From Planctomycetota bacterium (GTDB lineage: Bacteria; Planctomycetota; Phycisphaerae; WQYP01), in NCBI GenBank assembly GCA_021852225.1, contig JAJZOA010000017.1:1-16168 (forward strand): DNA of 16,168 bases. Reading direction: 5' to 3'. This document shows positions 1,448-16,153 of this stretch, one piece after another. The position numbers and the translations under genes were made by a program. The number at the start of each line of letters is the position of its first letter. The first letter of the stretch is position 1. The notes below the pieces were generated by a model. That model saw only the letters and a list, made by a program, of their open reading frames with translations, did not search any database and was not told the DNA's origin.

Positions 1448-1485
1448 ATCGTCACCTGGTTTATCGACTGATTCAGAATTCTCCG

Positions 1486-2028: not shown

Positions 2029-2030
2029 AT

Positions 2031-3236
2031 TTATCCCACCCATACAAATGAACAAATCCTCCGCGATCCATAGGGGCGGGTACGGCGCCGGCCCGCGTGT
2101 GCCGGTCGGCAAATGCCGATGGCCGTAGTCCGCCAGCAACGGCTTGCGTGCAAAGACCGTATCATTCCCGGATGGCTGGTAACCAGGCTCAAACGCCGAA
2201 CCGCGGGGGCCTCAATTGCGGCCACAGTGTCACGAAAAGCCGAACCAATGCCGATTCCCTGAAAATCCGGTAAAACCACCACCCGGCTGAACCGCCAGTA
2301 ACCCCTGAACCCGGCCACCGGTGCCACCGCCGCAAACGCCACCGGCTTGGGCGACGCGTTCGTGTCGTTCAGGCCGCTGCCGGCAGTCAGCAGGCCGGCG
2401 TAACAGCGTATCGCCGCCGGCAAAGACTGACTTAAATAGTGATGACGCTTAAACAGGTTCCAAACGTCGGCATTGCACCGATGGACCGAAATTCTGATTC
2501 TCGGCCGACAAAGCAACCCCCGTGTCCGCCGCGGCTGGTGGACACGGGTAAGGTCCGGCGCCACCGTTCCCGCCGCCGGTTGGCAAGCGGCCTGCGGCAT
2601 ATCAGCCGCATGAAAGCGCGTCAGTTGGCCCGATGCCATGTCCAGGCACCAGTCCGGACAAAGCCAGTCCAGCACATCGTAATGACAGGACACAGCCACA
2701 AATCGCCGCCGTATGGATCCGGCCCGAATGGCTCCCGCCACCGCGGCTGCGCCCACGCGCGCCGCGGTACGGTCCACCAGACTGGTGAATTCATCCATCA
2801 CCACGGGGATATCCGGATCAGTGGCGGCCAGCAGCATTCGAGCCAGGTCCGCGCGGAATTGTTCTCCACCGCTAAGTGTGCCATAAGGCCGCAGCCAAGC
2901 CGGCGGAGAGGCAAACCCCACCGCCGTCAACATGCGGGTAATCTGATGAATGTCGCCATCCAGGCAGTCCACAATCGCCCGGTCGGCCGGCCAAATCAGC
3001 GGCCAGACCGGCGGCCGCAACGAACCGGCAAACGCACTGCGCGCGATGTGGGTTTTACCGCTGCCTGAAGGGCCGACAATCAACCCAATTTTCCACGGTT
3101 CACTTTCCGCCGGAATTTCCGCGCAAAACTGCTGCACACTGTTTTTAGTTATCGCAATATCAAAAAGGCCGGCAACCTGCCGAACACGAAATGAATCCGC
3201 AATTGAACAACTGACAGTGGTGGTGATTTCCGGCAT
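2031..3236 (-). CDS. ABC-type ATPase fused to a GNAT acetyltransferase
   Basis: This is a single 401-aa chain with two domains. Residues about 1-215 form an ABC-class ATPase: Walker A GPSGSGKT (55-62), signature LSGGEQ (121-126), Walker B VVMDEF with Asp148/Glu149, and an H-loop SCHYD (183-187). No membrane segments are present, so this is not a transporter subunit. Residues about 245-401 are a GNAT fold, with the acetyl-CoA loop DFQGIGIGSAFRD (324-336). The C-terminal GSRRICSFVWVG fits the end of related phage-associated acetyltransferases, so I see no frameshift. The ATG at 3236 is preceded by GGAAGG. The gene lies between the ParB-like gene and the small terminase, and its stop is two bases from the TerS-like start. 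The position suggests a packaging- or DNA-linked role, but the substrate is unknown. Confidence 0.85.
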   Translation of the reverse strand: MPEITTTVSCSIADSFRVRQVAGLFDIAITKNSVQQFCAEIPAESEPWKIGLIVGPSGSGKTHIARSAFAGSLRPPVWPLIWPADRAIVDCLDGDIHQITRMLTAVGFASPPAWLRPYGTLSGGEQFRADLARMLLAATDPDIPVVMDEFTSLVDRTAARVGAAAVAGAIRAGSIRRRFVAVSCHYDVLDWLCPDWCLDMASGQLTRFHAADMPQAACQPAAGTVAPDLTRVHQPRRTRGLLCRPRIRISVHRCNADVWNLFKRHHYLSQSLPAAIRCYAGLLTAGSGLNDTNASPKPVAFAAVAPVAGFRGYWRFSRVVVLPDFQGIGIGSAFRDTVAAIEAPAVRRLSLVTSHPGMIRSLHASRCWRTTAIGICRPAHAGRRRTRPYGSRRICSFVWVG

Positions 3237-3475
3237 AAACCTTCCCGCGGTTTAAGGGAATATGAGAAAGATATCCGGCGGACGTCCTCCGGAATCAGGC
3301 GGCGATATTAATCTGAATCGCGGACATCACGCCGGCGGCCGCCCCTTCAAATAAGGTAACACTGGCCCTCGGTCAGAATATAATTTCAGGGTACGCAGCG
3401 ACCTTATGCGGCAGAAGTCGTATGATTTGGGGCAGACCGCTCCAACATTTTGGGCATGACCAAGCATCAGTTTCC

Positions 3476-4036
3476 TTACAGTGTCATCAGCCGCACCTTG
3501 CGGCCCTGCCCCGCAAGCTGCTGGTACAATATTTTCTGATCCGCCTCGTCATGACATTCCACGGCAAGTTCATACAAGTGCGGAATGTCGTGAATCTGCG
3601 GCAAATTTTCCGGCAGTTGCAACGGTGCCACCCCGGCGGCTTGTAACAACGCATTCAGTGATTCATCAGAAAAACCGGTGGCAATTTTCAGCAGATCATC
3701 CAGCGATTCAAATTCGCTTTTAAGTGCCGCAAGGTCCCATTGGGCAAGTTCTGCGGTGCGGTTGTCCGCAATGGCGTAGGCAATTGCATCGGGTCCGGAA
3801 AGATCGGTTACGAGCACCTCTATGGACGACCAGCCCAATTCACGTGCCGCCTGATAGCTGCCGTTGCCGGCACGAATAATATTATTGCGGTCCACCACAA
3901 TGGGCTTCTGCTGGCCGAAGCGGCGCAGGCTGGCCTTAATTGCCGCAATATTTTCCGGACTATGCCGCCGCACATTGGCAGGATCCGGAGAAATGGAATC
4001 AAGCGGCACGGTTTTTATGAGCGGCGTGGTTTTCAT
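3476..4036 (-). CDS. ParB/sulfiredoxin-fold nuclease-domain protein, phage type
   Basis: This 186-aa protein carries a ParB N-terminal (ParB/Srx) domain over residues about 5-95: VPLDSISPDPANVRRH, IKASLRRFGQQKPIVVD and RAGNGSYQAARELGW. The glycine-rich GNGS box is the CTPase/nuclease motif, in the GNGS form often seen in phage ParB-like proteins instead of the GxRR/GHGR form of chromosomal ParB. There is no ParB-type central helix-turn-helix or dimerisation domain, so this is not a partition ParB. It is the first gene of the leftward packaging operon; about 240 bases separate it from the ABC/GNAT gene. That gap contains only very short open frames. The start ATG at 4036 has only a weak ribosome site. 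Expected role: DNA or nucleotide binding linked to packaging or replication. Confidence 0.85.
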   Translation of the reverse strand: MKTTPLIKTVPLDSISPDPANVRRHSPENIAAIKASLRRFGQQKPIVVDRNNIIRAGNGSYQAARELGWSSIEVLVTDLSGPDAIAYAIADNRTAELAQWDLAALKSEFESLDDLLKIATGFSDESLNALLQAAGVAPLQLPENLPQIHDIPHLYELAVECHDEADQKILYQQLAGQGRKVRLMTL

Positions 4037-4568: not shown

Positions 4569-7500
4569 ATGGCATTGAATTTTTCAGCCGCGCGGGAATT
4601 GCTCAACCAATTCAAATTTGGCGATCTGTTCATCGAGCATCTCGGCTGGTCCAACCCGCCCGCGGGACGCCGCGCGCCGGTGAAAATGCAGGTCAAGGGA
4701 CTCGATTTCCAACGGCGGCAAATTGCCGACCTCGGCGGCGTCGGCGTTTACGAAATTGTCGCGTCCACAATCGCAGACCGGAAAACCCGTGAAGCAATCG
4801 GCCGTGAAATGCGGCAGATTCAATACGAATGCCTGCTGATATTTGTCGACGCCCAACGGACCCAAAGCGTCTGGCACTGGGCCAAAAAGGAGGGGGATAA
4901 AAACACGCATGTTGTCCGGGAACATTTCTTCGCCGGCGGCCAGCCGGGCGATTTATTTATCAGCAAAATCAGCGCAATCGTTTTTGATATGTCGGAATTT
5001 GATTCCGAAGGACGTGTGGCGCTTACGCAGGTGGCGGCCAAGCTGCGTACCGCATTGGATGTACAGCGCGTCACCAAAAAGTTTTTTGGTGAATTTAAGA
5101 CCATTCACGACGATCTGGTGGGCCTGATAGCCGGGATACCACACGAACGGGACCGCCGGTGGTATGCGTCTATCCTGCTGAACCGGCTCATGTTCATCTA
5201 TTTCCTGCAGCGCAAGGGCTTTCTTGATTACAAAAACAAAAACAGCCGCGATGGCAATGTGCTTTACCTTCAGCAGAAGCTGACCCATTATCAGAACCCG
5301 GCGGAAAGGAAGCCGAATGGCGGCAGCTTTTACGGCGAATTTCTGCAATTGCTGTTTTTTGAGGGCTTTGCCAAGCCGGAGGAGGAGCGGTCCGCGGCGG
5401 CCCGCACGGCCCTGGGGGCCATCCAGTATCTCAACGGCGGCCTGTTCCTGCCGCACCGCATTGAGACAACCAACAAAAATATCGCCATCCCCAACGAATT
5501 TTTTGAACGGCTCCTCAAACTGTTCGCCAGCTATTCATGGAACCTTAACGACATCCCGGGCGAAAATGACCAGGAAATTAGCCCGCATATATTGGGCTAC
5601 ATTTTTGAAAAATACATCAACCAGAAAGCTTTTGGAGCCTATTACACTCGCCCCGAAATTACCGAATATCTCTGCGAACGAACAATTCACCAGCTTATTC
5701 TGGATGCCATCAACACCCCGGCCAATACACCCATTTTGCCCGGTGCCAAGGCCAGGCAGTATGAATCTCTGGCCGACCTGTTGATCGATCTGGACGCCCC
5801 ACTGTGCCGCAAGCTGACTCTGGAGGTGCTGCCACGGCTGTCTCTCCTGGACCCGGCCTGCGGCTCCGGCGCTTTTCTGGTGGCGGCAATGAATACGCTG
5901 ATCAACGTTTATTCGGCGGTCATCGGCAAGATTAAGTTTTTGCACGATGCCGAGCTTACCACATGGCTTGCGACCATTGAATCCGGACGCACCGGCCCGA
6001 ACATTGCCTATTTCATTAAAAAGCGGATCATCACCGACAATCTTTTTGGCGTGGACATTATGGAAGAGGCCACGGAAATAGCGCGCCTGCGGCTGTTTCT
6101 GGCCTTGGTATCCTCCGCGGAAACGGTCGAACAACTCGAACCGCTGCCGAATATTGACTTCAATATTCTGCCGGGCAACTCCCTGGTGGGGTTAATGCGG
6201 GTGGACGGCCCTTCATTTGAGAAAAAGGAACGGCAGGGGAATTTATTCCGGCAGCGGTCGTACAGGCAAATATTGGAGGAAAAAAATCGCCTGATTGATA
6301 ACTACCGTCACGCGGCTACCTATTTTGAAGATTTAACCGCCCTTCGCAACGATATTGATGGGAAAAAGCAGGCCTGCGGAGATGTACTGGATGACATGCT
6401 TCTGGACGAATTTGAACAACTCGGGATTAAATTTGAACAGGCCACTTGGGATGAGGCAAAGAATGCCCAAGGGCGCCCGAAAAAGCGGGGATTGAATCTG
6501 GAGGATATTAAGCGGATGCAGCCGTTCCATTGGGGATTCGAATTTGACCGCGTACTCAATGAACAAGGCGGGTTTGACGCTATTATCACCAATCCGCCAT
6601 GGGAAATATTGAAGCCCAACGCCAAGGAATTCTTTCTGGACCGTTCCGACCTGGTTTCCAAAAAGAAAATGCTGATCCACGATTTTGAAAAGGAGCAGGA
6701 GCGGCTCCTGAAGCAGGATACGGAAGTTCGCGATGCGTGGTTGGAATACCTTTCCAGCTACCCGCATGTCAGTGGCTATTTCCGCAGCGCCCGGCAGTTC
6801 CAGAACCAGATCAGCATAGTCAACGGAAAGAAGGCCGGAACAGATATCAACCTCTATAAGCTGTTTACCGAACAATGCTTCAATCTTTTGCGGGCTGGCG
6901 GCCTGTGCGGCACCGTAATACCCAGCGGCATATACACGGACCTTGGTGCGAAGCAATTGCGCGAAATGCTGTTCAAGGAAACGCTCATTACAGGGTTGTT
7001 TGGCTTCGAGAATCGCAAGCAGATATTTGAAGGCGTCGATTCACGATTCAAATTTGTCGTGCTTACATTTCAAAAAGGCGGCACAACCCGGCAATTCCCC
7101 GCAGCGTTCATGCGGCACGATGCGGAAGAATTGGAGCGCTTTCCACAGCACGGCGCCGTGCCTATCAGCGTTGACCTGGTGCGGCGTCTATCGCCGGATT
7201 CGTTATCCGTGATGGAATTCAAATGCGATCTGGATGTCCAGATTGCCGAGAAAATGCTGAAGTTCCCGTTGCTGGGGGAAAAACTTGAGGGCGTCTGGAA
7301 TTTGCAGTTCTCGTGCGAATTTCACATGACCAACGACAGCGATTTATTTGAGACCAGCCCCGGCAAGGGGAGGCTGCCGCTTTACGAAGGCAAAATGATA
7401 TGGCAGTTTGAACACGACTATGCCAAGCCGCGGTATTGGGTGGATGAGAAAAAAGGGCGGGCACGGATTTTAGGCCGCACGGCGGATAACGGCCAGAAGC

Positions 7501-8063
7501 TGGATTATCAGGATTATCGGCTGGGGTTCCGGGATATTGCAGCAAACACGAACGAGCGGACCTTGGTGGCAGCACTTATTCCGGCAGCATTTCACGGTAA
7601 TAAAATTCCAACAGTATGCACCTACAGCGGGCGCGGCGGGATGCTTATCAAGGAAAGTGACCAATTATTCCTTTCCGCACTGCTTAATAGCTTCGCCATT
7701 GACTGGGTAATCCGGATGAAGGTAACGACAACCCTCAATTTCTTTTACGTCTACCAACTCCCCGTTCCGCGTTTGACGGAAAAAGACCCGGAGTTCGCGC
7801 CCATCGTGGAACGCGCCGCCCGCCTGATCTGCACCACGCCGGAATTTGATTCATTGGCCAAACAAGTCGGCCTGAAAAGCCACAAAGACGGCACCACCGA
7901 CCCCGCCGAACGCGCCCAACTCCGCGCCCAGCTCGACGCCCTGATCGCCCATCTCTACGGCCTAACCGAACAAGAATTCGCCCATATATTAACCACCTTC
8001 CCACTGGTACCGCAGGAAACTAAGGACGCCGCGTTGGCGGAATTTTTGGCGGGTATTACATAA
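4569..8063 (+). CDS. Eco57I-type adenine-specific DNA methyltransferase / type IIG-like restriction-modification protein
   Basis: This 1164-aa protein should methylate adenine in DNA using S-adenosylmethionine. Motif I is DPACGSGAF (Asp428-Phe436) and catalytic motif IV is FDAIITNPPW (NPPW at 675-678), the gamma-class N6-adenine signature of Eco57I-like enzymes. Residues 1-160 form the N-terminal domain of this large family (GDLFIEHLGW, then LLIFVDAQRTQSVWHW). Residues about 190-225 (RRWYASILLNRLMFIYFLQR) start the helical linker, and the C-terminal ~350 residues are the target-recognition part. The chain ends in LYGLTEQEFAHILTTFPLVP, a typical family tail. I cannot point to a clean PD-(D/E)XK nuclease motif, so cleavage is not shown. 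The ATG at 4569 has only a weak GGGA site. No separate specificity or helicase subunit is adjacent. The tail of this gene recurs as fragments three more times downstream. Confidence 0.9.
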   Translation: MALNFSAARELLNQFKFGDLFIEHLGWSNPPAGRRAPVKMQVKGLDFQRRQIADLGGVGVYEIVASTIADRKTREAIGREMRQIQYECLLIFVDAQRTQSVWHWAKKEGDKNTHVVREHFFAGGQPGDLFISKISAIVFDMSEFDSEGRVALTQVAAKLRTALDVQRVTKKFFGEFKTIHDDLVGLIAGIPHERDRRWYASILLNRLMFIYFLQRKGFLDYKNKNSRDGNVLYLQQKLTHYQNPAERKPNGGSFYGEFLQLLFFEGFAKPEEERSAAARTALGAIQYLNGGLFLPHRIETTNKNIAIPNEFFERLLKLFASYSWNLNDIPGENDQEISPHILGYIFEKYINQKAFGAYYTRPEITEYLCERTIHQLILDAINTPANTPILPGAKARQYESLADLLIDLDAPLCRKLTLEVLPRLSLLDPACGSGAFLVAAMNTLINVYSAVIGKIKFLHDAELTTWLATIESGRTGPNIAYFIKKRIITDNLFGVDIMEEATEIARLRLFLALVSSAETVEQLEPLPNIDFNILPGNSLVGLMRVDGPSFEKKERQGNLFRQRSYRQILEEKNRLIDNYRHAATYFEDLTALRNDIDGKKQACGDVLDDMLLDEFEQLGIKFEQATWDEAKNAQGRPKKRGLNLEDIKRMQPFHWGFEFDRVLNEQGGFDAIITNPPWEILKPNAKEFFLDRSDLVSKKKMLIHDFEKEQERLLKQDTEVRDAWLEYLSSYPHVSGYFRSARQFQNQISIVNGKKAGTDINLYKLFTEQCFNLLRAGGLCGTVIPSGIYTDLGAKQLREMLFKETLITGLFGFENRKQIFEGVDSRFKFVVLTFQKGGTTRQFPAAFMRHDAEELERFPQHGAVPISVDLVRRLSPDSLSVMEFKCDLDVQIAEKMLKFPLLGEKLEGVWNLQFSCEFHMTNDSDLFETSPGKGRLPLYEGKMIWQFEHDYAKPRYWVDEKKGRARILGRTADNGQKLDYQDYRLGFRDIAANTNERTLVAALIPAAFHGNKIPTVCTYSGRGGMLIKESDQLFLSALLNSFAIDWVIRMKVTTTLNFFYVYQLPVPRLTEKDPEFAPIVERAARLICTTPEFDSLAKQVGLKSHKDGTTDPAERAQLRAQLDALIAHLYGLTEQEFAHILTTFPLVPQETKDAALAEFLAGIT
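7963..8042 (+). repeat. Methylase 3'-tail seam, intact reference copy
   Basis: This segment of the methyltransferase encodes the LTEQEFAHILTTFPLVPQ region and is the reference for three degenerate copies at about 9429-9532, 11443-11478 and 12546-12614. Within the window only this copy is part of a full-length gene. Confidence 0.8.
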
Positions 8064-8118
8064 CGGTCGGCAGCCAGATGCCTTTGCTCATATCCGATTT
8101 CGACGAAAAGCAAAGATT

Positions 8119-8146
8119 TTGACAAAAATCTCCGCCTTCATATAAT
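8119..8146 (+). promoter_or_regulatory. Consensus sigma70-type promoter for the SDH operon
   Basis: TTGACA (8119-8124) and TATAAT (8141-8146) are both exact consensus hexamers separated by 16 bases. The predicted start at about 8153 lies ~40 bases before the 70-aa ORF. This is the best promoter in the window and implies strong, probably constitutive, expression. Confidence 0.8.
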
Positions 8147-8190
8147 AAAAAGTGAATTAACGTCAAATTATCAATGTAAGGAGAGTCTCC

Positions 8191-8403
8191 ATGGACCGCA
8201 GAAAGTCAAAAAAAAGCATAACGGCAGGGAGTCGGAAACGTGTGGATGCCGCCAGACTTATTTCCCAACACAAACGATATTTCACACCCGCGGAATCCGC
8301 CCCGTCAAACGAAAGTGAACGATACTCGCTCGAACAACCATTTCCATTTCCTTCGGTTCCCACAGTTACCACCTCATTAACACCATATTCCATATCCCAG
8401 TGA
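8191..8403 (+). CDS. Small basic protein of unknown function, first gene of the SDH-peptidase operon
   Basis: This 70-aa ORF starts at an ATG preceded by AAGGAGAG, one of the better ribosome sites in the window, and lies directly behind a consensus promoter. Its N-terminal third is rich in Lys/Arg (MDRRKSKKS, GSRKR); its C-terminal third is rich in Pro/Ser/Thr (PFPFPSVPTV). I do not recognise a family, and there is no signal peptide or membrane segment. It ends ten bases before the SDH-type peptidase start, with an AGAGGA site in the gap, so the two are almost certainly one transcript. It could be a regulator, substrate or adaptor of the peptidase, or simply a leader ORF. The strong signals favour a real gene, but the sequence itself gives no function. 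Confidence 0.55.
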   Translation: MDRRKSKKSITAGSRKRVDAARLISQHKRYFTPAESAPSNESERYSLEQPFPFPSVPTVTTSLTPYSISQ

Positions 8404-8413
8404 AGAGGATTCA

Positions 8414-9391
8414 ATGCCGAATTGGGGCGACGTTCAAAACGAGATCAATCTCCAGATATCTCAGCACCAGAGCATGGCCCAACAAAGCCATGATACGGTT
8501 CGGCGAAAATATCTCGAACAATTGCAACAGCACACCAATCGCAACATAATCGCCTATTATTCAGGCTGGCTTTCCAAGCAGCAGATTTCCGGTATGGAAA
8601 TCAACGATGAAGATAAAAACGGCTTTATGATGGCCGTGCATAAACTTGACCGGACCAAGGGCTTAGACCTCATCTTGCACACTCCGGGCGGCGATATTGC
8701 GTCAACACAATCCATTGTTGATTATCTACATAAAATGTTTGACAATGATATTCGAGCCGTTGTACCGCAGATCGCCATGTCCGCCGGTACCATCATCGCC
8801 TGCTCATGCAAGGAAATCCTGATGGGCAAACAGTCCAACCTCGGCCCGATCGATCCGCAGGTGCGCGGAGCTCCCGCATATGGCGTAATACGCGAGTTCA
8901 GGCGTGCTGTGAAAGAAATAAAGAAAGACCCCGCCAGTGTGGCCGTCTGGCAGACCATTATCGGCAAATATCAACCAACCTTCCTGGGACAGTGCTCCAA
9001 CGCGATCCAATGGTCCAACAATTTTGTCCGCGAACAACTTGCAAAAGTAATGTTCGTCGGCGAAGCCGGTGCCAATCGCAAAGCGGCCAAGATTGCCAAA
9101 CAACTTGCCGATTACCGAAAGCATAAGACGCATGGCCGGCATATTCACACCGACGAATGCAAGGCCATGGGGCTTAAGATCATGGAAATTGAAACTGATC
9201 AGAAACTTCAGGATTTGATTTTGACCGTGCATCATTGCTATATGCATGCTTTAATGAATACCGGTGCGATCAAGATAATTGAAAACCACCTGGGGGCCAG
9301 ATTGATAAAACAACAGGTTATGCTGACCAATCCCGCCCCATTCAATACAATGCCGCCTCGACAGGAAGTCGGTAATTCCCCGGCCAGCTAA
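8414..9391 (+). CDS. SDH/SppA-like serine peptidase (ClpP/crotonase fold)
   Basis: This 325-aa protein resembles the serine dehydrogenase proteinase (SDH_sah) family, soluble serine peptidases with the ClpP/SppA fold. The oxyanion-loop motif is LILHTPGGDI (residues 87-95). The nucleophile motif is QIAMSAGTII with Ser123, followed by QSNLGPIDPQ (140-149), which lines the active site in this family. There is no N-terminal signal peptide or membrane anchor, unlike SppA or NfeD partners, so it should act in the cytoplasm. The C-terminal ~120 residues include HIHTDECKAMGLKI, typical of the family tail. The start ATG has AGAGGA upstream and follows the 70-aa ORF by ten bases. Its substrate is unknown. 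The neighbourhood (restriction-modification, toxin-antitoxin, TcmP) suggests a defence-island role, but that is inference from location. Confidence 0.85.
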   Translation: MPNWGDVQNEINLQISQHQSMAQQSHDTVRRKYLEQLQQHTNRNIIAYYSGWLSKQQISGMEINDEDKNGFMMAVHKLDRTKGLDLILHTPGGDIASTQSIVDYLHKMFDNDIRAVVPQIAMSAGTIIACSCKEILMGKQSNLGPIDPQVRGAPAYGVIREFRRAVKEIKKDPASVAVWQTIIGKYQPTFLGQCSNAIQWSNNFVREQLAKVMFVGEAGANRKAAKIAKQLADYRKHKTHGRHIHTDECKAMGLKIMEIETDQKLQDLILTVHHCYMHALMNTGAIKIIENHLGARLIKQQVMLTNPAPFNTMPPRQEVGNSPAS

Positions 9392-9428
9392 ATGAAGTAA
9401 GATAAAAGATGGTTTATTAAACATTATT

Positions 9429-9532
9429 GAATTCGAAATTCCGGCATGTTTTGGGGACGTTTTTCCCGGCGAGCCGAGATTCCGGAGGAAATTAAGAAGA
9501 CAGCGCTGGCGGCGTTTGTGACAGTCGGTTGA
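9429..9532 (+). pseudogene. Decayed methylase 3'-tail fragment, copy 2
   Basis: The last codons read PEEIKKTALAAFVTVG then TGA, aligning with PQETKDAALAEFLAGIT of the intact methyltransferase. Upstream, in a shifted frame, HVLGTF matches HILTTF, and the fragment starts with the shared GAATTC. It has accumulated indels and no start. It begins ~37 bases after the SDH-peptidase stop. The similarity is mainly at protein level, so this is the oldest or most distantly derived copy. Confidence 0.55.
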
Positions 9533-9815
9533 AATCGCAATTGAAAAGGTACGCAAGCGAACCGGTGGACGATGAGGCCCCGGAGTGTGTGGCGCTTTCC
9601 TGAACCGCCAAACGGACGCGGGTGTTCGGAACCCGATGCCCAGCCCCTATGTCCTTGCCTATAAAATGAATCTTCCATTTGTTAAGCGTCTGCGGACTAA
9701 GCTTTTCACGCCGGGCAAATGCGGCCATGGTTAATCCGCTCTCCCGCAAAAGCGACACGGCATGATGCCAAAATGCGCGACGATCTTCATTGGATAACCC
9801 ATCCCGCTGTTTCAC
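9492..9815 (-). pseudogene. IS66-family accessory protein TnpA, solitary remnant
   Basis: The translation from a GTG at 9815, preceded by AAGGAG, gives KQRDGLSNEDRRAFWHHAVS and then SGLTMAAFARREKLSPQTLNKWK. This is the helix-turn-helix pattern of IS66 OrfA/TnpA proteins (FW..HV....SGLS.AAFCR...LS...F..WR). No TnpB or TnpC transposase follows, and no IS66 ends are recognisable. The 3' end of the frame runs into antisense of the decayed methylase tail, so the last ~15 residues are not TnpA sequence. I read it as a truncated relic left by an older insertion beside the tail fragment. A longer TTG-started frame to 9842 exists, but the GTG start is better supported. Confidence 0.65.
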
Positions 9816-9905
9816 TGCTGACTCCTTGAAACTCTTCAACAATCAAAGAATCAAAATTTACACCGCTAGAAAATTCCCGCCAGATGGGGTTCGCGGGACG
9901 TTTAC

Positions 9906-10227
9906 CAATAATCCGACCTCTGGTTGTGCCGCCGCGTTGACAATTGTTAGGTATTTGTTAGTATATGGTTGATATCGGAGGATTGCATTATGTCCAAACC
10001 GCCGAAGGAACCAATATGGCCGGCCCGGGAACACACTCTTGCAAAAATTGCCATTCTCGACGCATACCTTAATGCTTGGTTCGCCATCCTCGGCCGTTCG
10101 GTGAAAAGCGACATGCTTTATATCGACGGCTTTTCGGGTCCGGGTGTTTACGCTGGCGGCCAAGACGGTTCGCCCGTTGTGGCCGTAAAGGCGGCCCATA
10201 AAGCGCGTTGTGATGCGGGCGAAAAAT
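9906..10227 (+). repeat. 322-bp direct repeat copy 1: tcmP promoter and 5' end
   Basis: This segment matches 12636-12957 at a constant offset of 2,730 bases with about a dozen substitutions and no gaps. It contains the putative promoter, ribosome site and first ~79 codons of tcmP. Homology stops abruptly at both ends: the left flank is IS66-derived or unknown, and the right flank is the coiled-coil gene. Confidence 0.93.
9937..9964 (+). promoter_or_regulatory. Putative promoter, tcmP-type, copy 1
   Basis: An exact TTGACA (9937-9942) is followed after 16 bases by TAGTAT (9959-9964), a fair -10. The same element is identical at 12667-12694. It lies ~25 bases upstream of the ATG at 9990, whose ribosome site is GGAGG. 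In this copy it would now express the chimeric cargo downstream. Confidence 0.55.
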
Positions 10228-10241
10228 CAGCCGCCCCCTGA
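9990..10241 (+). pseudogene. tcmP: Truncated TcmP, N-terminal fragment
   Basis: The first ~79 residues are nearly identical to the full-length TcmP at 12720 (for example IDGFSGPGVYAGGQDGSP, DMLYIDGFSG). The frame then crosses the repeat boundary at about 10227 and ends after four foreign residues (SAAP). The promoter, the GGAGG ribosome site and the ATG are intact, so an 83-residue stub may still be translated. The fragment overlaps the start of the coiled-coil gene in another frame, so it may act as a translated leader for it. Loss of the remaining ~75% of the protein makes TcmP activity very unlikely. Confidence 0.88.
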
Positions 10242-11445
10242 TCCACAGGCAGCGGAAGTTTTCGAGCGTTTTGTTCGCGTGGTTAACTCCCTTGGGGCTC
10301 GCCTGCAGTCGACCGATTCTGCCCTGGTTCCAACTGGCAATCTGCAACAATTGCCAAATCAGTTGACCGCCCTATTGAACATTTTCAACAGTTACCTCCA
10401 GAACATTAGGCTGTGGACGCAATTAAACAACCAAATCGATCAGGTTTTAGCAAGTCTGGTTCACATTCCGATCTTCGCAACCGACACCGCGGCCAGTCAA
10501 TATACCGCTTCCCTTGCTGATTTCATGAAGTTCCGTGACCAGGCGATAAAACAAGCGGAAGACCGGGCTGCGAAGATGGAGGAGCGGGCAAAGGCGTTCG
10601 AGGCGGTGGCGAGCACCGTCGAATCGCGAGCTAAAGAAGTTCAGGGCCAGGTGAACCAGGAGAAGGCCCGGCTGGATAGTATAATTCCTGCTTCGCAGAG
10701 TCAGATAGCAAAATTAATCGCGGAAGAGCAGGCACGGTATAGCGAGGCTGAAAAGCAGCGGGAAAAAATTGCCACTGACGGCGAAGCCAAGCGAGACGCG
10801 GAGGCCAAGGCGAGGTTGACCGAATTTACGAAGGAATTCGACCAACTGGTTGCGGCGGACCAAAAGGAATTCTTAGATACCATCGAAACGCACCGTAAGT
10901 CAGCCGGCGCGGCGGTAACCGAGCTTTCCACGCAGTTGGCGGAGGCGAAGAAGATTGTCGGTCTGATCGCCAACACCGGGATGGCGGGACACTATCAGCT
11001 TATCGCAGATCGGGAATGGAAGTGGATGTGGATCATGCGGTGGATTGCCGCAAGCTTTTTTCTCGGTGCGATAGGCTCAATCGCGTGGCTGATCGTAGGC
11101 GTCCATTCCGCCCAGGTGGATTGGGAAATGGTGGTGTTCCGTTTCGCACTGGTGGTGGTTGTGCTCGTTCCGGCGTTCTATTTTGCCCGCGAGTCTGGCC
11201 GCCACCTGCAGCGCGAAGCCCACAACCGGCGAATTGAACTGGAGCTTTCGGCGCTCCAACCGTTCCTCGCACGGCTGCCGGAAAAGGACGCCCAAGATAT
11301 TATAAAAGCAAAAGCGAACCAATATTTCGGACAGGAGCCGCCGCCCGACAATGATGACGCCAATTTACTGCGAGACGTATCGCTGCGGGGCGATCAGGTG
11401 CTGAAGATTCTGACCAAAGTTTTAGCAGCCTGGCGGGGGAAATAA
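10213..11445 (+). CDS. Coiled-coil protein with two membrane segments, function unknown
   Basis: This protein has ~410 aa; a GTG one codon upstream at 10210 is an alternative start. Residues about 15-90 are helical, and about 105-250 form a long charged coiled coil (EDRAAKMEERAKAFEAVAST). They are followed by TGMAGHYQLIADREWKWMW at about 256-274. Two hydrophobic segments follow, at about 277-297 and 308-326, then a helical C-terminus. This layout resembles membrane-anchored coiled-coil proteins found in defence islands (compare the DUF6161-type and ZorA-like architectures), but I do not recognise a named family with confidence. The first ~5 residues are read from tcmP repeat sequence in a shifted frame, so the native N-terminus has probably been lost or replaced. 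The stop codon TAA is shared with the first bases of the methylase-tail seam at 11443. Confidence 0.75.
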   Translation: MRAKNQPPPDPQAAEVFERFVRVVNSLGARLQSTDSALVPTGNLQQLPNQLTALLNIFNSYLQNIRLWTQLNNQIDQVLASLVHIPIFATDTAASQYTASLADFMKFRDQAIKQAEDRAAKMEERAKAFEAVASTVESRAKEVQGQVNQEKARLDSIIPASQSQIAKLIAEEQARYSEAEKQREKIATDGEAKRDAEAKARLTEFTKEFDQLVAADQKEFLDTIETHRKSAGAAVTELSTQLAEAKKIVGLIANTGMAGHYQLIADREWKWMWIMRWIAASFFLGAIGSIAWLIVGVHSAQVDWEMVVFRFALVVVVLVPAFYFARESGRHLQREAHNRRIELELSALQPFLARLPEKDAQDIIKAKANQYFGQEPPPDNDDANLLRDVSLRGDQVLKILTKVLAAWRGK

Positions 11446-11478
11446 CCGAACAAGAATTGGCACATGTATTAACGGCGT
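11443..11478 (+). repeat. Methylase 3'-tail seam, copy 3
   Basis: Over 31 bases (11443-11473) it matches 7963-7993 of the methyltransferase with three substitutions, reading TEQELAHVLT against TEQEFAHILT in the same codon phase. The match then fades (TACPRVRG). Its first three bases are the TAA stop of the coiled-coil gene. Confidence 0.85.
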
Positions 11479-11528
11479 GCCCGCGAGTGCGAGGGAAAGA
11501 TTTGGCCTGCGGCCACCGATGGATTAAA

Positions 11529-11564
11529 TCCCGATATCAGTTTCCAGAGAGGCGGATATCGGGA
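11529..11564. repeat. Perfect 10-bp inverted repeat hairpin
   Basis: TCCCGATATC (11529-11538) pairs with GATATCGGGA (11555-11564) over a 16-base loop. There is no T-run after it, so it is not a canonical terminator. It could be an operator, an element end or a factor-dependent termination structure downstream of the coiled-coil gene. Confidence 0.6.
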
Positions 11565-11639
11565 CAGGCTCCACCGGCTAACATGGTGTTGCGGTCACGG
11601 TGTGTTGTTGTTCATGGGGTGCCCGTATCCGCGTCCTAG

Positions 11640-11740
11640 TACTACAGCGCGACTTCTCAATCGCCGCATGCGTTAAACGCGGGAAATCAGAATTCTGGAA
11701 TGGCGATTTTCACCATTTGAAATCGAAGTCGCGCTGTAGT
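11640..11740. mobile_element. MITE-like element (~100 bp) with 16-bp terminal inverted repeats
   Basis: ACTACAGCGCGACTTC (11641-11656) is repeated in inverse at 11725-11740, perfect over 16 bp. An inner pair AATCGCC/GGCGATT (11660-11666 and 11702-11708) extends the foldback. CCTAG flanks both sides (11635-11639 and 11741-11745), a probable target duplication. No coding capacity. This fits a non-autonomous miniature transposable element; the parent transposon is not in the window. Confidence 0.65.
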
Positions 11741-11780
11741 CCTAGCCGGAGATCAATTCGCCACCGATTGGTTGTTTGCG

Positions 11781-11786
11781 TATAAT
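11781..11786 (+). promoter_or_regulatory. Possible -10 box for the MNT/HEPN operon
   Basis: An exact TATAAT lies ~118 bases before the MNT start. The matching -35 is weak (TTCGCC at 11757-11762, 18 bases upstream), so the call is tentative. Confidence 0.3.
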
Positions 11787-11903
11787 GAAGATCGAATTAA
11801 ATTCTCTTTTGAGGTATGCATTGGCAATCGATGTTCATGTACGGGTTATGGAAAGTTGGTTAAGGTGCCGGGATCGACCGGCGGAATTGTCTGGGAGTTT
11901 ACG

Positions 11904-12194
11904 ATGATCTTCCTGCAGGACGTTATGCGGCGGCGCAACGATATTCTGGCGGTGGCTGGAAAATATGGTGCCCACGACGTGCGAATCTTTGGTTCTGTGG
12001 CACGCGGGCAGGCGGGGCCTTCATCGGATCTCGACATGATCGTGCGATTTGATCCGGATCGCACCCTATTTGACCACGGTGGTTTGGTAATGGACCTGCA
12101 GGATCTGCTGGGCGTCCATGTGGACGTACTTGATGAGGACGGCCTGCGCCCGCGCTTCCGGGACCACGTTATGAAAGAGGCCGTAACGCTATGA
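11904..12194 (+). CDS. mntA: MNT-domain nucleotidyltransferase antitoxin (MntA-like)
   Basis: This 96-aa minimal nucleotidyltransferase is the expected antitoxin of a HEPN RNase. It has the GSVARG motif (residues 30-35) and SDLD (41-44), whose two acids bind metal, with a third acid in VHVDVLDED (about Asp74). In characterised MNT/HEPN pairs, MntA transfers AMP groups to a tyrosine of the HEPN toxin and so silences it. A longer open frame reaches 11772, but the upstream 44 residues look non-native. The ATG at 11904 follows a GGGAG ribosome site and gives the normal family length. The gene overlaps the HEPN start by four bases (ATGA), so the two are translationally coupled. All key residues are visible, and the pair appears functional. 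Confidence 0.9.
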
Positions 12195-12547
12195 GGCCGA
12201 CCAAGCTGCTTTTGCAGGATATGCTCGATTCGATAGCCGAAGTGGTGCAGTCCACGCCGGAATCGCCAACCGAATTTGTGAACAACAAATTTGTCCAGTC
12301 GCACATTCTCAGGCACATCCAAATTATAGGTGAGGCCGCATGGCGACTCCCGGACGAATTGCGCGAGGCGCATGCCGAAGTGCCGTGGCGGCAAATCGCG
12401 GGAATGCGGCATGTTTTGGTGCATGATTACTTCGAAGTAAATTGGAATCGTGTTTTCAAAACCGCTCGTGAAGATGTTCCCGCCCTTCAACCACAGATGC
12501 GGAAAATTCTCGATACATTGCCGTTGGAACTCGACGAACTTGAATAA
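12191..12547 (+). CDS. hepT: HEPN-domain RNase toxin (HepT-like, DUF86)
   Basis: This 118-aa all-helical protein is the toxin partner of the MNT gene that overlaps it. The signature RHVLVHDY at residues 73-80 matches the RX4HXY active site (Arg73, His78, Tyr80). The tyrosine is the residue AMPylated by MntA in studied systems. [20 protein letters not shown] is the family's most conserved stretch, and the length is typical. When released, such toxins cleave RNA (tRNA in some cases) and arrest growth, often in response to phage. The TAA stop at 12545-12547 overlaps the start of another methylase-tail fragment, like the stop of the coiled-coil gene. The gene looks intact. Confidence 0.9.
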
Positions 12548-12614
12548 TTCGCCCACATAATTATCCACCTTCCCACTGGTGCCGCAGGAAGTAAAGGATG
12601 CCGCCCTGGCCGAA
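12546..12614 (+). repeat. Methylase 3'-tail seam, copy 4
   Basis: AATTCGCCCA onwards matches 7975-8042 of the methyltransferase closely, including CCACCTTCCCACTGGT and CCGCAGGAA. A one-base insertion (cacataattat against catatattaa) breaks the reading frame, so it is non-coding debris. Its first bases form part of the HEPN stop codon. Copies 3 and 4 overlap by only ~19 bases of the tail and bracket the MNT/HEPN cassette. Confidence 0.85.
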
Positions 12615-12635
12615 CACGCAAACGGTGGGCCCGAG

Positions 12636-12957
12636 CAATAATCCGACCTCTGGTTGTGCCGCCGCGTTGACAATTGTTAGGTATTTGTTAGTATATGGTT
12701 GACATCGGAGGATTGCATTATGTCCAAACCGCCGAAGGAACCAATATGGCCGGCCCGGGAACACACTCTTGCAAAAATTGCCATTCTCGACGCATACCTT
12801 AATGCGTGGTTCGCCATCCTAGGCCGGACGGTGAAAAGCGACATGCTTTATATCGACGGCTTTTCTGGTCCGGGCGTTTACGCTGGCGGCCAAGACGGTT
12901 CGCCCATTGTGGCCGTAAAGGCCGCAAATAAAGCGCGTTGTGATGCGGGCGAGAAAT
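12636..12957 (+). repeat. 322-bp direct repeat copy 2: tcmP promoter and 5' end
   Basis: This is the counterpart of 9906-10227. Here it continues into a long tcmP reading frame, so it is probably the parental arrangement. The left boundary lies ~20 bases after the copy-4 methylase tail. Confidence 0.93.
12667..12694 (+). promoter_or_regulatory. Putative tcmP promoter, copy 2
   Basis: TTGACA (12667-12672), a 16-base spacer and TAGTAT (12689-12694), identical to the copy at 9937-9964. Conservation of the segment between the two repeat copies is consistent with, but does not prove, promoter function. Confidence 0.55.
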
Positions 12958-13811
12958 GGACTGCCAAGACGATCCGTATGGTCTTTGTTGAGCGCAACAG
13001 CGAACGATTTGACATTTTGCAATCGCGGCTCGCAATTCACCAGCGGCAACCCAATTTGAGTATCCAGTGCATCAACGATGCATTTGCCTCAGCCTTCGGC
13101 GAAATAAGGCGGCAGCATAAGGACGCCTTTACTTCTTCAATGCCATTATTCGCTTTCCTCGACCCGTTTGGAGTAAAAGGAACCACCTTCAGCATATTGC
13201 GGGAAATTCTTTCAAGCGGAACCTCTGAAGTGTTTCTTTTATTCGACGCTGATGGAATGGAGCGAATCCGAGTGGCGGGCGGGGCTGCTGGATGTGAAGC
13301 GGTATTTGACGCGGTCTTCGGCGGCCCAAGCTGGCGAGAAATTTCATTTACTGACGATATAAAATCGAACAGCCGAAAAATATTGGTCGCCTATCGCGAG
13401 CAACTCCGCGGCCGCGCGGGTGCTAAATTTTCCTTCTCGTTCGAAATGCGAAAGGATAACGGGGCAAGCAGTTACCATCTTTTGTTTGCAACAAAACATA
13501 TCAGAGGGCTTGAAAAAATGAAGGAGGCCATGCGGGCAGTCGACAAGAACTTTATATTTGCCGACGGACAAACCGGACAGAAAATCATGTTCGGTCCGGA
13601 CAACAGCGCTGTGGCGGCGGTTGACGCGGAAACATATTTTGACAAATTTTGTTCTGGAAAAACGATAGGCTACGATGATATCAGGTCTTGGGTGCTGCAG
13701 GAAACGCCCTACATGCGGCCTGACACGCGGGCCTGTGACAGTTTCTGTCCAGGGTATCGCTTGGTAAAATATGTGAAGACTGATCCACAGGATGTGGTTC
13801 GGCAGTTGTGA
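12720..13811 (+). CDS. tcmP: Three-Cys-motif partner protein TcmP, 3' end interrupted by an insertion sequence
   Basis: The first ~336 residues match the TcmP family: HTLAKIAILDAYLNAWFAIL, then YIDGFSGPGVYAGGQDGSP at 44-62, MVFVERN and FLDPFGVKGTTF at 147-158. The DGFSGPG and DPFG boxes resemble a methyltransferase-like Rossmann fold, but the biochemical activity is not established to my knowledge. The family is named for co-occurring with the Gp37/Gp68 three-Cys protein, which is indeed encoded convergently at 15368-16153. The ATG at 12720 has GGAGG nine bases upstream; a TTG at 12699 is less likely. At 13729 the left end of an ISKra4-like element begins, so the last ~27 residues (from about CDSFCPGYR) are IS-encoded. 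I could not find the missing C-terminus beyond the right end of the element. The protein may be damaged. Confidence 0.87.
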   Translation: MSKPPKEPIWPAREHTLAKIAILDAYLNAWFAILGRTVKSDMLYIDGFSGPGVYAGGQDGSPIVAVKAANKARCDAGEKWTAKTIRMVFVERNSERFDILQSRLAIHQRQPNLSIQCINDAFASAFGEIRRQHKDAFTSSMPLFAFLDPFGVKGTTFSILREILSSGTSEVFLLFDADGMERIRVAGGAAGCEAVFDAVFGGPSWREISFTDDIKSNSRKILVAYREQLRGRAGAKFSFSFEMRKDNGASSYHLLFATKHIRGLEKMKEAMRAVDKNFIFADGQTGQKIMFGPDNSAVAAVDAETYFDKFCSGKTIGYDDIRSWVLQETPYMRPDTRACDSFCPGYRLVKYVKTDPQDVVRQL

Positions 13812-13833
13812 CTTTATTCAAGGAGGAACAAAC

Positions 13834-14205
13834 ATGTCAGCAGCGACCAGTCGTCAGGAAGCGTTGGAGAGGATAACCAAGACATTCCGCGATGCCTTGG
13901 AACGGATGATTCCTGCGGATGAGGGCCAGCGGTTGCGGGGAACCACGTTTCGGGATTTTGAGTTGCTGGGGCAGGAATTCAAGGCCGCGTTGATGCCAAC
14001 GCTGCTGGAGGAATACGCTCGGCTGACAGATTCAGCGTCCTTAAAAGAAGCGGGTTGCTGCCCGCAGTGTGGATCACTGCGGACACATTGGGCCTCGGCC
14101 CCTACGCAAAATGAGATCAGAGGCCCGGATGGCGTGATGGTGATTACCAAGCAGCACGGACGTTGCCGGTCATGTGGCCGGTCTTTTTCCCCCTCAGGAT
14201 CGTGA
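13834..14205 (+). CDS. ISKra4-type transposase, N-terminal frame (zinc-finger part)
   Basis: This 123-aa frame starts at an ATG preceded by an excellent AAGGAGG site. It encodes the N-terminal part of an ISKra4-family transposase. Its C-terminal half holds two Cys pairs, CCPQCGSLRTHW and RCRSCGRSFSP, a zinc ribbon expected to bind the element ends. It stops at TGA just after a TTTTTCCCCC run, where the catalytic frame takes over in the +1 phase. On its own it could act as a DNA-binding repressor; fused by frameshifting it would give the full transposase. The frame upstream to 13792 overlaps the TcmP read-through and lacks a ribosome site. Confidence 0.82.
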   Translation: MSAATSRQEALERITKTFRDALERMIPADEGQRLRGTTFRDFELLGQEFKAALMPTLLEEYARLTDSASLKEAGCCPQCGSLRTHWASAPTQNEIRGPDGVMVITKQHGRCRSCGRSFSPSGS

Positions 14206-15256
14206 CTGGAGCCTGCCGGCGGAGGTTCCGCTGACGCCGCTGGCGGCCGAGCGGGTAGCGCGTGAGGCGTCGGATCGGGTATTTGATGATGCTGCCCGCT
14301 CATTGAATCTGGATTGGCAAACGCAATTGGATGGTAAGCAGGTGCAGCGTTGGTCCCAGCGGATGGGGGACCAAATGGTCGCCATGCGGGTCTGGGAGAT
14401 GGACTTGGAGCGGCGTGGAGTGCATCCGGCGGGGCCTGCCAACGCCCCGCAATTGCTGGTGGTGGGCATGGATGGGGGACGGGTGCATACGCGTGATAAG
14501 AACCCGCAGACGCAAAGCCGTTGGCGAGAAGATAAAGTGGCCAGCTTCACCAGTTACATACCCGGCGACGGCAAGGACAAAAAGCCCGTGGCGCAGGTGA
14601 CCACCTACACCGCCACGATGAAGGACGCCAAGGCCTTTGGGCCTATGGTCAAGCTGGAGGCGAATCGCCGTGGACTCGCCCGTGCCGCAGTGGTGTTGAA
14701 TATAAGCGATGGCGGGAACTGGATTGATCCGTTGGCCAAACAACTCAGGCTGGCGGATTGTCGCATCATTGATTATTACCATGCACTGGAGCATCTTCAT
14801 CTGATGGCGGCGGCGGTGCATGGCAAGGATACGGTGGAGACCAAGGCTCTGAGTAATGAACTCGAAGGCCTGCTATGGGAGGGGAAGGTGAGCCAAATAC
14901 TGCTTCGGGTCAAACCCCATGTGCGATCATCTGAAAAGGATTCGCCGAAAGCTCAGGGGGAGACTCCGCAGCATATCCTGCGCCGCGAAATGGGGTATTT
15001 CGAAAAGCACCAGGAGCACATGTGCTATGACCTTTACCGGAGTAAGGGCTGGCCGATTGGTTCTGGCAATACCGAGGCGGGCGTCAAAACATTCAATAAG
15101 CGGGTCAAGGGCACGGAACAACGATGGCGTATTCCAGGGGTCGAGGCCATCCTCGCCTTAAGAGCAGCCTGGAAAAGTCAGGATGCCCGCTGGGAACGGC
15201 TGTGGGCCAACCGACCCGCCTACGTTATGACAAAGACAATAAAAAACGCAGCATAA
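14174..15256 (+). CDS. ISKra4-type transposase, catalytic frame (needs +1 frameshift)
   Basis: This 360-residue frame carries the DDE-type catalytic part: LLVVGMDGGRVHTRDK with the first Asp, then VVLNISDGGNWIDPLAKQL, CRIIDYYHALEHLH with the second Asp, and GWPIGSGNTEAGVKTFNKRV with the final Glu. That is the conserved order in ISKra4-family enzymes. It has no good start or ribosome site of its own. The natural join is within TTTTTCCCCCTCAG, giving RSCGRSFSP-QDRDWSLPAEV, which restores family continuity. The upstream frame must shift by +1 (or -2) at CCC-TCA. This may be programmed frameshifting or a recent indel. The stop overlaps the right inverted repeat. Confidence 0.85.
   Translation: MAGLFPPQDRDWSLPAEVPLTPLAAERVAREASDRVFDDAARSLNLDWQTQLDGKQVQRWSQRMGDQMVAMRVWEMDLERRGVHPAGPANAPQLLVVGMDGGRVHTRDKNPQTQSRWREDKVASFTSYIPGDGKDKKPVAQVTTYTATMKDAKAFGPMVKLEANRRGLARAAVVLNISDGGNWIDPLAKQLRLADCRIIDYYHALEHLHLMAAAVHGKDTVETKALSNELEGLLWEGKVSQILLRVKPHVRSSEKDSPKAQGETPQHILRREMGYFEKHQEHMCYDLYRSKGWPIGSGNTEAGVKTFNKRVKGTEQRWRIPGVEAILALRAAWKSQDARWERLWANRPAYVMTKTIKNAA
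14176..14190 (+). promoter_or_regulatory. Candidate +1 frameshift site in the transposase
   Basis: The zero frame reads TCT TTT TCC CCC TCA. A tRNA-Pro slipping from CCC to CCT would continue as CAG GAT CGT in the catalytic frame. Runs of five T and five C make this a plausible slip site, but a simple sequencing or mutational indel is not excluded. Confidence 0.45.
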
Positions 15257-15367
15257 ACTGTCACAGGCCCAGTGGCTCGAGAGATTCCGCCGTGGCCGGG
15301 TCAATGGTTCGTATTGAAAACATGCCGTATATAAACTCCTTAGCCCAGGGCGGCTGATGCCGAGCCT

Positions 15368-16153
15368 TCACGCGACCACATCCAGGGCTACCTTTCTCCA
15401 TGCCCGATTTACTGTCGCCCCTCCAGGCCTGCGGACACCGGTGCCGTGTGCCGGCATGGCGTCATAATTGCGACCATTAAGCAGCCGCCCGGTCGAATGC
15501 TTGTTTACTCCGCCCCATTGTTTGAAGAAAAAAGCAACTTTTTTTTTCTCACATTGTTTGCGAATAGACTCTACCCAGGCCTCCTCCATTGGTCTGGCAC
15601 CCGGACCAGATTCCCCTCCCACAATCGCCCAGTGTATGGCCGTCAGTTCCAGGTTATTCAAAGGCCCCAATAGAGGCTCGAGTGAAAGAAATCGCACTTG
15701 TGCCGGTACCTGCGCCAGGTCCGTGATGCGCGACACCACCCGCTCATCTTCTACACTTACGCCCATCCAGACGTTTTTTGGCCAAGGCAATTCCGGTGCG
15801 ATCGCGCGCAGCCGTCCGCTGCGTTTCGTCAGTACCTGAAATGTATGCTGGGGACAGGCCGCCATTGTGTCAAAGACTCGTCGGATGAAATCATCCGGAA
15901 CTTTTTCATGAAACAGATCGCTCATGGAATTAACGAATATGACCCTTGGTTTGGCCATACGACGCGGCAGGTCAATTAAATCCGGATGCAGCGTCACCTT
16001 AAAGCCATTGCGGTATCGCGGGCTGCCCATGGCAAGCAATCGCCCGGCCATTCTTTCGGCATAACAGTGCCGACATCCTTCGCTGACCCGTGAACAACCG
16101 GTAACCGGATTCCAGGTAAATTGCGTCCATTCAATTTTGCTGGTTTTCGGCAT
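15368..16153 (-). CDS. Phage Gp37/Gp68-family three-Cys-motif protein (DUF5131, radical-SAM-like)
   Basis: This 261-aa protein has the diagnostic N-terminal [20 protein letters not shown]. Its cysteines 20, 27 and 30 (C-x6-C-x2-C) resemble an iron-sulfur cluster-binding motif, so it may be radical-SAM-like. Other family landmarks are [20 protein letters not shown] (90-109), [40 protein letters not shown] and FFFKQWGG. All appear intact, and the length is normal. The ATG at 16153 follows AGGAG. The family is the partner from which TcmP takes its name, and tcmP faces it convergently, now separated by the insertion sequence. An A9 run in the coding strand (around KKKVAFFF) could promote slippage. 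The biochemical role of the pair is not established here. Confidence 0.9.

Follow-up and report, generated by a model that had tools for sequence, protein, structure and literature searches.

Why should the 3′ end of a DNA methylase gene recur, on the same strand, behind one unrelated gene after another? The question is raised by a 16,168-base stretch of DNA from a Planctomycetota bacterium (assembly GCA_021852225.1, contig JAJZOA010000017.1; hereafter the window), which encodes a 1164-residue Eco57I-like, type IIG-like methylase followed by accessory genes, here called cargo. Apart from the intact end of the methylase gene, its last ~100 nucleotides (nt), here called the tail, recur three times downstream as orphan tails (Table 1). 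Our analysis suggests that the orphan tails are probably displaced or duplicated 3′ ends of the methylase gene, arising as small modules of defence or toxin-antitoxin genes were repeatedly inserted or replaced at the 3′ edge of the restriction-modification locus.

Orphan methylase tails in the window

An earlier reading of the same DNA, made from the sequence alone (the sequence-only reading), had counted four occurrences of the tail; all are real, and the count is more exactly three orphans plus the intact end. Against the 101-nt tail, copies 4, 3 and 2 reached local scores of 83, 47 and 28, and when each of these stretches was dinucleotide-shuffled 1000 times, the real score was never attained. 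A profile that includes the copies is bound to recover them, so the test profile was stripped of the three window orphans while keeping the intact window tail and the tails of relatives; the best of 200 shuffled windows then reached 11.7 bits, versus 57.8, 22.7 and 16.9 bits for copies 4, 3 and 2. Chance similarity, which the sequence-only reading had named as a possible objection, was rejected by the shuffles and by this profile for all three copies. Its statement that copies 3 and 4 can be recognised at the nucleotide level also holds (28/31 and 60/72 identical, respectively), while copy 2 is real but weak.

The sequence-only reading further held that each cargo block ends in a methylase tail. 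This describes copies 3 and 4, inside which lie the stop codons of the coiled-coil gene (at 11445) and of hepT (at 12547), but not copy 2, which begins 46 nt (by the profile) or 91 nt (by the nucleotide match) past the stop codon of the SDH protease gene, nor the TcmP/DUF5131 block, behind which no tail was found within the window. The proposal to date the events by tail divergence fails, because the orphan nearest to the intact gene, copy 2, shows the greatest divergence and the most distant one, copy 4, the smallest, so that an order of age cannot be read from them.

Table 1. Methylase, tail copies and cargo features of the window, with the evidence for each
Feature	Position	Strand	Evidence and remarks
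Eco57I-like / type IIG-like methylase, intact	4569..8063	+	PF07669 80.3 bits; PADLOC REase_MTase_IIG E 1e-107; sliding identity
Tail copy 1, inside the intact methylase gene	about 7942..8062	+	profile match 111.3 bits
ClpP-like SDH-type serine proteinase, cargo	8414..9391	+	PF01972 78 bits; homologous DNA in L010, L076, L120, L123r
Orphan tail copy 2, weak	9437..9529	+	16.9 bits (profile without window orphans); 29/39 nt identical at 9482-9520
Truncated 5′ copy of TcmP gene plus leader	9906..10205	+	96% identical to 12636-12935
Coiled-coil protein, cargo (start of reading frame mechanical)	10210..11445	+	weak coiled-coil matches only; homologs in L006, L124, L126
Orphan tail copy 3, overlaps stop codon of coiled-coil gene	11441..11490	+	22.7 bits; 28/31 identical at 11443-11473; equal joint in L006, L124
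MntA-like nucleotidyltransferase antitoxin, cargo (reading frame as listed)	11772..12194	+	PF01909 41.8 bits; PADLOC PDC-S09
HepT-like RNase toxin, cargo	12191..12547	+	PF01934 85.3 bits
Orphan tail copy 4, overlaps hepT stop codon	12543..12614	+	57.8 bits; 60/72 identical
TcmP gene (PDC-M30A-like), cut by ISKra4-like element	12699..13728	+	TIGR04474 174 bits; PADLOC; tail-then-TcmP order common to L006, L008
DUF5131 partner of TcmP	15368..16153	-	PF07505 337 bits; inverted relative to L006/L008

Downstream copies of methylase 3′ ends in related loci

Scanning genomes with 21 aligned methylases yielded 79 loci (L numbers). Here, the last 150 nt of every open reading frame (ORF) of at least 400 residues were compared with the DNA downstream of it at a score threshold of 45 (the self-tail test). 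Eight of the 66 methylase ORFs, a set that includes fragments of broken genes, had a downstream copy of their own 3′ end, with scores of 77-206 (8/64 in a first version of the test, where control blocks scored at most 43). As controls, blocks from the start or middle of the methylase ORFs were copied downstream in 0/66, and the 3′ end was copied upstream in 0/60. The positives comprise the window, the Planctomycetota loci L006, L008, L069 and L076, the Chloroflexi loci L045 and L054, and the cyanobacterial locus L029. Among the other ORFs of at least 400 residues, the 3′ end was copied in 2/231 (Fisher p = 1.3e-4 versus the methylases) and the start or middle in 1/231. Copies of methylase 5′ ends were found upstream in 1/64 and downstream in 0/53, and copies of the 5′ ends of other ORFs in 0/225 and 2/192, respectively, the latter two both weak.

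Both non-methylase ORFs with a copied 3′ end encode PLD-Snf2 helicases and lie upstream of the methylase in their loci. Their 3′ ends are duplicated downstream behind other genes (L076:4748-4892 and 8805-8949; L082:9412-9544 and 15476-15608); in L082, a methylase and other genes sit between the helicase end and its copy, and a small gene ends 13 nt into the copied end.

Comparison of the window with the loci by BLASTN gave second tail matches in L006, L008, L069 and L076, and L076 holds five tails in a row. A model built from the sequences of 18 tails was run on 28 genomes (G numbers) of the Planctomycetota family to which the L076 genome belongs. Sixteen of them matched at E ≤ 1e-4, and nine carried at least two tails on one contig (5, 2, 2, 2, 2, 2, 4, 3 and 2; 24 in total, intact ends included), counts that leave out low-scoring matches with no second tail on the contig (e.g. 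G003 C23, G021, G029 C17 and C282). Within each of these nine arrays the tails were always on the same strand, and none was reversed. For relatives of the Chloroflexi and cyanobacterial loci, where up to 8 and 5 candidates per genome, respectively, were scored, multiple matches were listed for just two of 98 genomes (G032 and G033) and two of 145 (G031 and G135). In G032, a 64-nt piece, 97% identical to a Chloroflexi methylase tail, lies on another contig (G032:C139:4468-4531, L177), with no methylase-like long ORF seen nearby.

A DNA-level search for plasmid relatives of window positions 7500-13000 gave no match. Four viral relatives of the methylase are 38-54% identical to it; of the viral loci L001-L004, L001 alone satisfied the filters for the self-tail test, and it was negative there. 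The single viral-contig match of the tail pattern (L005) was rejected as a chance match in a phage contig.

Tail edges and cargo joints

Twenty-nine tails were compared at their edges; a thirtieth, in L076 near 13714, was excluded because it had aligned to the intact tail. The distance from the left edge to the end of the best reference gene ranged over 54-305 nt, in a comparison that offered only the last 500 nt of the reference genes, so that longer stubs were not detectable in it. When whole proteins were compared, 25 of 26 displaced methylase fragments mapped to the final 10% of the protein. Not counted as displaced were intact methylases, the methylases of L122r, L125r and L129r (34-41% identical to that of the window) and fragments at contig starts (L120 1-216 and L123r 1-324); the piece in L132 was counted as the exception; the copy in L054 and window copies 2 and 3 were not found at the protein level. 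Since some of these fragments had been identified through the tail model, the self-tail test provides the less biased support. The sequences show that the tails are genuine, are located downstream in the orientation of the methylase gene and consist almost only of its last ~10%.

A cargo ORF ends at most 50 nt from the left edge of the tail in 15 of the 29 cases (one 62-residue ORF left out), and hepT of the window makes 16; in 11 of these 16, the stop codon lies inside the tail. The genes found near tails are diverse and include SDH proteases, MntA/HepT, HipA-like kinases, DUF3037-like, ApeA-like HEPN, HNH, DprA and TcmP/DUF5131 genes, an AlbA-type protein with a ParA-like ATPase, and a HicAB-like pair below the Pfam cut-offs. 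In some cases the same cargo was joined at different places, namely the SDH gene in L076/L120, in L123r and, weakly, in the window, and a DUF3037-like gene in L121 and L127. The joint between the coiled-coil gene and the tail is common to the window, L006 and L124. The alignments show recurrent joining of unrelated cargo to the tail, in many cases with the cargo stop codon within it. The sequence-only reading had proposed that the methylase 3′ end marks cargo turnover and that this could be checked by looking for orphan tails behind unrelated accessory genes in relatives; they do recur there, in agreement with the proposal.

Sites with and without cargo

An empty site with a single target copy is seen in the Desmonostoc relatives L180 and L182, where the methylase is followed by the flank without the HNH insert; L029 and L175, in contrast, hold an insert of two genes, the second of them HNH, followed by a displaced tail ahead of the flank (the tail of L175 is short, 39 nt). 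L181r holds the first insert gene only, and L183 and L176r retain only methylase 3′ ends. The form of a target duplication is seen in L029 and L082, where the repeats run 7 and 29 nt, respectively, past the stop codon.

A second comparison involves L132, in which the methylase end is followed by dxs (PF13292), and L123r, in which a different methylase end, the SDH gene and an orphan tail precede the L132-type flank, 90% identical over 7.6 kb; judged by eye, the identity between the two rises inside the tail. L125r and L126, which belong to one bin, have a common left flank and a common tail end with different genes between them, and L126 and L128 share an MNT leader that is 99.6% identical over 238 nt from the tail end onward. 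In L122r, L125r and L129r, a window-type tail lies behind the more distant methylase or behind the genes after it. Across these comparisons, the coiled-coil, SDH, HNH or MntA/HepT genes are placed ahead of the displaced tail, and the breakpoints within the tail differ from pair to pair. Versions of the site with and without cargo exist in the aligned DNA, with the orphan tail on the side of the common flank, and pairs of loci can be seen to switch identity within the tail.

The exchanged segment may also reach into the methylase itself. L006 and L008 are ~93% identical on either side of a replaced block that extends from the variable region of the methylase to the tail, the L006 block also holding the coiled-coil gene. 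In the window methylase, assigned by its Eco57I methylase domain (PF07669, cut-off 25.3 bits) and by the type IIG-like PADLOC profile PDLC03628, the variable region lies near residues 1001-1050. Its two nearest proteins are 98% and 89% identical, and all others at most 79%. P0001 is 96-100% identical to it in each 50-residue block as far as residue 1150, except for 88% at 1001-1050, and 14% identical beyond; for P0002, P0003 and the pair L006/L008, identity falls to 22-26% in a single block around window residues 1001-1050. Based on this variability and on the known layout of such enzymes, the block is probably the specificity region.

Tail 4 of L076 agrees with the intact tail at 106 of 108 positions despite a joint to a 250-residue cargo gene that is shared with L120 at lower identity. 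We therefore read this tail as one that seems to have exchanged sequence with another.

A proposed route of cargo turnover

These comparisons point to two steps. New joints between cargo and tail would arise from insertion with a long, variable target duplication or from one-sided (homology-assisted) illegitimate recombination, a step suggested by the sites with and without cargo. Existing tails of ~100 nt would then act as homology for general recombination, by which cargo could be added, removed or swapped; this second step is suggested by the changes of identity inside tails. Such an exchange would sometimes bring in a new specificity region of the methylase, and no dedicated integrase would be required. 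The sequence-only reading had offered, as the first of two explanations, that the tail is a recombination or integration target at which successive insertions leave repeated 3′ ends. This fits the better of the two, although in the strict sense of an integrase site it is unsupported, with no tyrosine integrase found on the array contigs, no attC-like hairpin and variable edges.

Several observations weigh against the proposed turnover at the methylase 3′ edge. Most methylase ORFs in the self-tail test (58/66) have no orphan tail, and only 20 of 298 genomes of the class match the tail model at E ≤ 1e-8, so that the arrays are concentrated in one family. A true target duplication predicts similarity running through the stop codon, and most Planctomycetota copies lose it before that point. 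The displaced or cut methylase piece in L132 runs from 73% of the protein (residue ~855) on; it begins 125 nt from the contig start (L132:1-1036), the 124 nt ahead of it show no match of the expected kind to the methylase or to the genome's other methylase contig, and the piece did not continue that contig. The rule of the last 10% therefore has an exception, and L132 is no clean empty site. Nor is it a rule that the methylase is kept intact, since the tail-adjacent gene is broken in L008 (residues 74-190 unmatched) and in L069 (two reading frames), and the ORF of L182 is shortened to 722 residues. Many of the loci are contigs of metagenome-assembled genomes, and the differences between L125r and L126 may be strain variants or binning errors. 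L176r and L124 resemble simple deletions with one end point in the tail. Finally, recombination was deduced from sequence, and none was observed directly.

Alternative origins of the tails

Could the tails be by-products of imprecise module replacement, in which joints overshoot by ~100 nt into a neighbouring gene and the stretch is kept by selection for a downstream promoter, the tail itself having no special role? Stubs of 5′ ends do occur: the 300-bp TcmP copy of the window, the single upstream copy of a methylase 5′ end, which is in L076, and 5′ parts of the helicase gene, joined to the methylase tail in L124 (L124:7691-8063) and L176r (2601-3368) and placed before cargo in L127 (L127:8738-8889). 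The helicase parts suggest deletion or replacement of the system as a whole. Yet, among other long ORFs, a copied 3′ end occurs in 2/231 against 8/66 for the methylases, whose 5′ ends are copied upstream in 1/64; moreover, the tails seem to exchange sequence, as in tail 4 of L076. We consider this explanation unlikely.

A site-specific recombinase acting in trans could instead use the methylase 3′ end as its attachment site, every cassette carrying its own site, as with the staphylococcal cassette chromosome (SCC) at rlmH or integron attC. Same-strand tails behind cargo, cargo stops at the tail edge and up to five tails per array would fit such an enzyme. The spread of the left edges over 54-305 nt and the breakpoints that vary among pairs do not, and no attC-like hairpin was found, the consensus structure of the 18 tails having only 3 pairs (-0.79 kcal/mol). 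On the array contigs of 11 genomes, no tyrosine integrase was detected in a search that covered PF00589 (E ≤ 1e-5), with serine recombinases and ccr not searched for; all 11 genomes carry PF00589 genes elsewhere, and the array contigs are only 4.4-62 kb long, so a distant integrase is possible. A dedicated recombinase of this kind appears improbable to us.

Random deletion decay, in which several methylases standing between the cargo genes were independently deleted down to 3′ stubs, gains some support from the joints of helicase 5′ parts to methylase tails in L124 and L176r, from the longer piece in L132 and from the degraded window copies 2 and 3, but random end points in a gene of ~3.45 kb predict stubs of all lengths, so the placement of 25/26 fragments in the last 10% fits it poorly, as does the set found without the tail model (start or middle blocks 0/66 versus 3′ ends 8/66), and we likewise regard it as unlikely. 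The other explanation in the sequence-only reading, that several related methylase genes once stood here, survives in a modified form, as displaced ends of a methylase that was replaced (L123r versus L132; L122r).

Cargo genes and history of the window

The MntA/HepT-like pair scores 38.8 and 44.6 bits against curated NCBIfam models whose cut-offs are 60, with the Pfam domains above cut-off. Since the order of tail and then TcmP is the same in the window, L006 and L008, copy 4 probably represents a methylase end displaced from a gene formerly located upstream of TcmP. The 300-bp direct repeat formed by the leader and 5′ end of TcmP places a truncated copy upstream of the coiled-coil gene, which is a second scar of turnover.

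Several mobile-element features were observed in the same region. An IS66-type TnpA ORF (9492-9842, minus strand) adjoins and overlaps tail copy 2, and a 110-bp palindrome at 11636-11745, resembling a miniature inverted-repeat transposable element, lies between tail copy 3 and the MntA gene, with 21-nt arms and CTAG at both ends. The ISKra4-like element at 13729-15270 has ~19-nt terminal inverted repeats and two overlapping ORFs and breaks the 3′ part of TcmP; its transposase scores below the NCBIfam cut-off. The DUF5131 gene, inverted with respect to TcmP, unlike in L006/L008, adjoins this element. At the other end of the window (65-4036, minus strand) lie terminase-like, ABC-like and ParB-like genes, and a homologous cluster adjoins the array in L124.

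Relation to known systems

In integron arrays, each cassette is followed by a repeat in one orientation, and members of a common pool stand in varying orders. The methylase tails resemble these arrays in both respects, and differ from them in lacking an attC-like fold, in the absence of a tyrosine integrase from the array contigs and in their variable repeat edges. SCC elements insert at the 3′ end of the rlmH methyltransferase gene through ccr recombinases with a fixed core and leave repeated 3′ ends. Insertion at the end of a methyltransferase gene that leaves repeated ends is common to both cases, whereas the varying edges and breakpoints of the tails do not fit a fixed attachment core (ccr was not among the genes searched for). 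Exchange of target-recognition domains is known in restriction-modification genes; as there, a variable region is swapped between otherwise similar proteins, but here the swapped block can extend through the tail into the cargo (L006 versus L008).

Insertion of restriction-modification genes with long and variable target duplication was reportedly described by Nobusato in 2000 and Furuta in 2010. Such duplications are described for restriction-modification genes and are on the order of 100 bp (PMC3874152; PMC3031569). The likeness lies in variable direct repeats of ~100 bp around an insert in restriction-modification loci with no known mobile element; the difference is that there the restriction-modification genes are the insert, whereas here the 3′ end of such a gene is the target, the insert is usually other cargo and the arrays reach five repeats. 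The inserts identified here, among them HNH, MntA/HepT-like, HipA-like, ApeA-like and SDH genes, are for the most part not restriction-modification gene complexes. Our case fits the form of the known target-duplication insertion, but has the restriction-modification gene itself as the target and mostly other cargo as the insert.

One section of a review on the Enteric immigration control region, a defence island, describes variable defence content between conserved anchors and contrasts the region with an integrase-bearing island (PMC12707154). Defence content that varies between anchors is a shared property; the section makes no mention of repeated methylase ends. Among titles and the beginnings of abstracts in the open-licence literature, we found no paper reporting that methylase 3′ ends recur behind defence cargo.

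Implications for defence-gene turnover

Gain and loss of genes in defence islands without an integrase are hard to study, since the events leave few marks. The tails offer a countable, oriented mark of past insertions, and sites with and without cargo are present in public genomes. Carried further, the proposed turnover may amount to a recombinase-free cassette system, a tentative and less probable extension, in which the 3′ end of the restriction-modification gene would serve as a portable ~100-nt homology tag on defence and toxin-antitoxin genes. General recombination would then shuffle cargo through the methylase locus as an integrase does in an integron, coupling specificity switching to defence-gene turnover. 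The model predicts RecA-dependent exchange at a defined stretch of ~100 nt. If the tails do act as a shared homology tag, a single locus would link changes of methylation specificity to the exchange of defence cargo.

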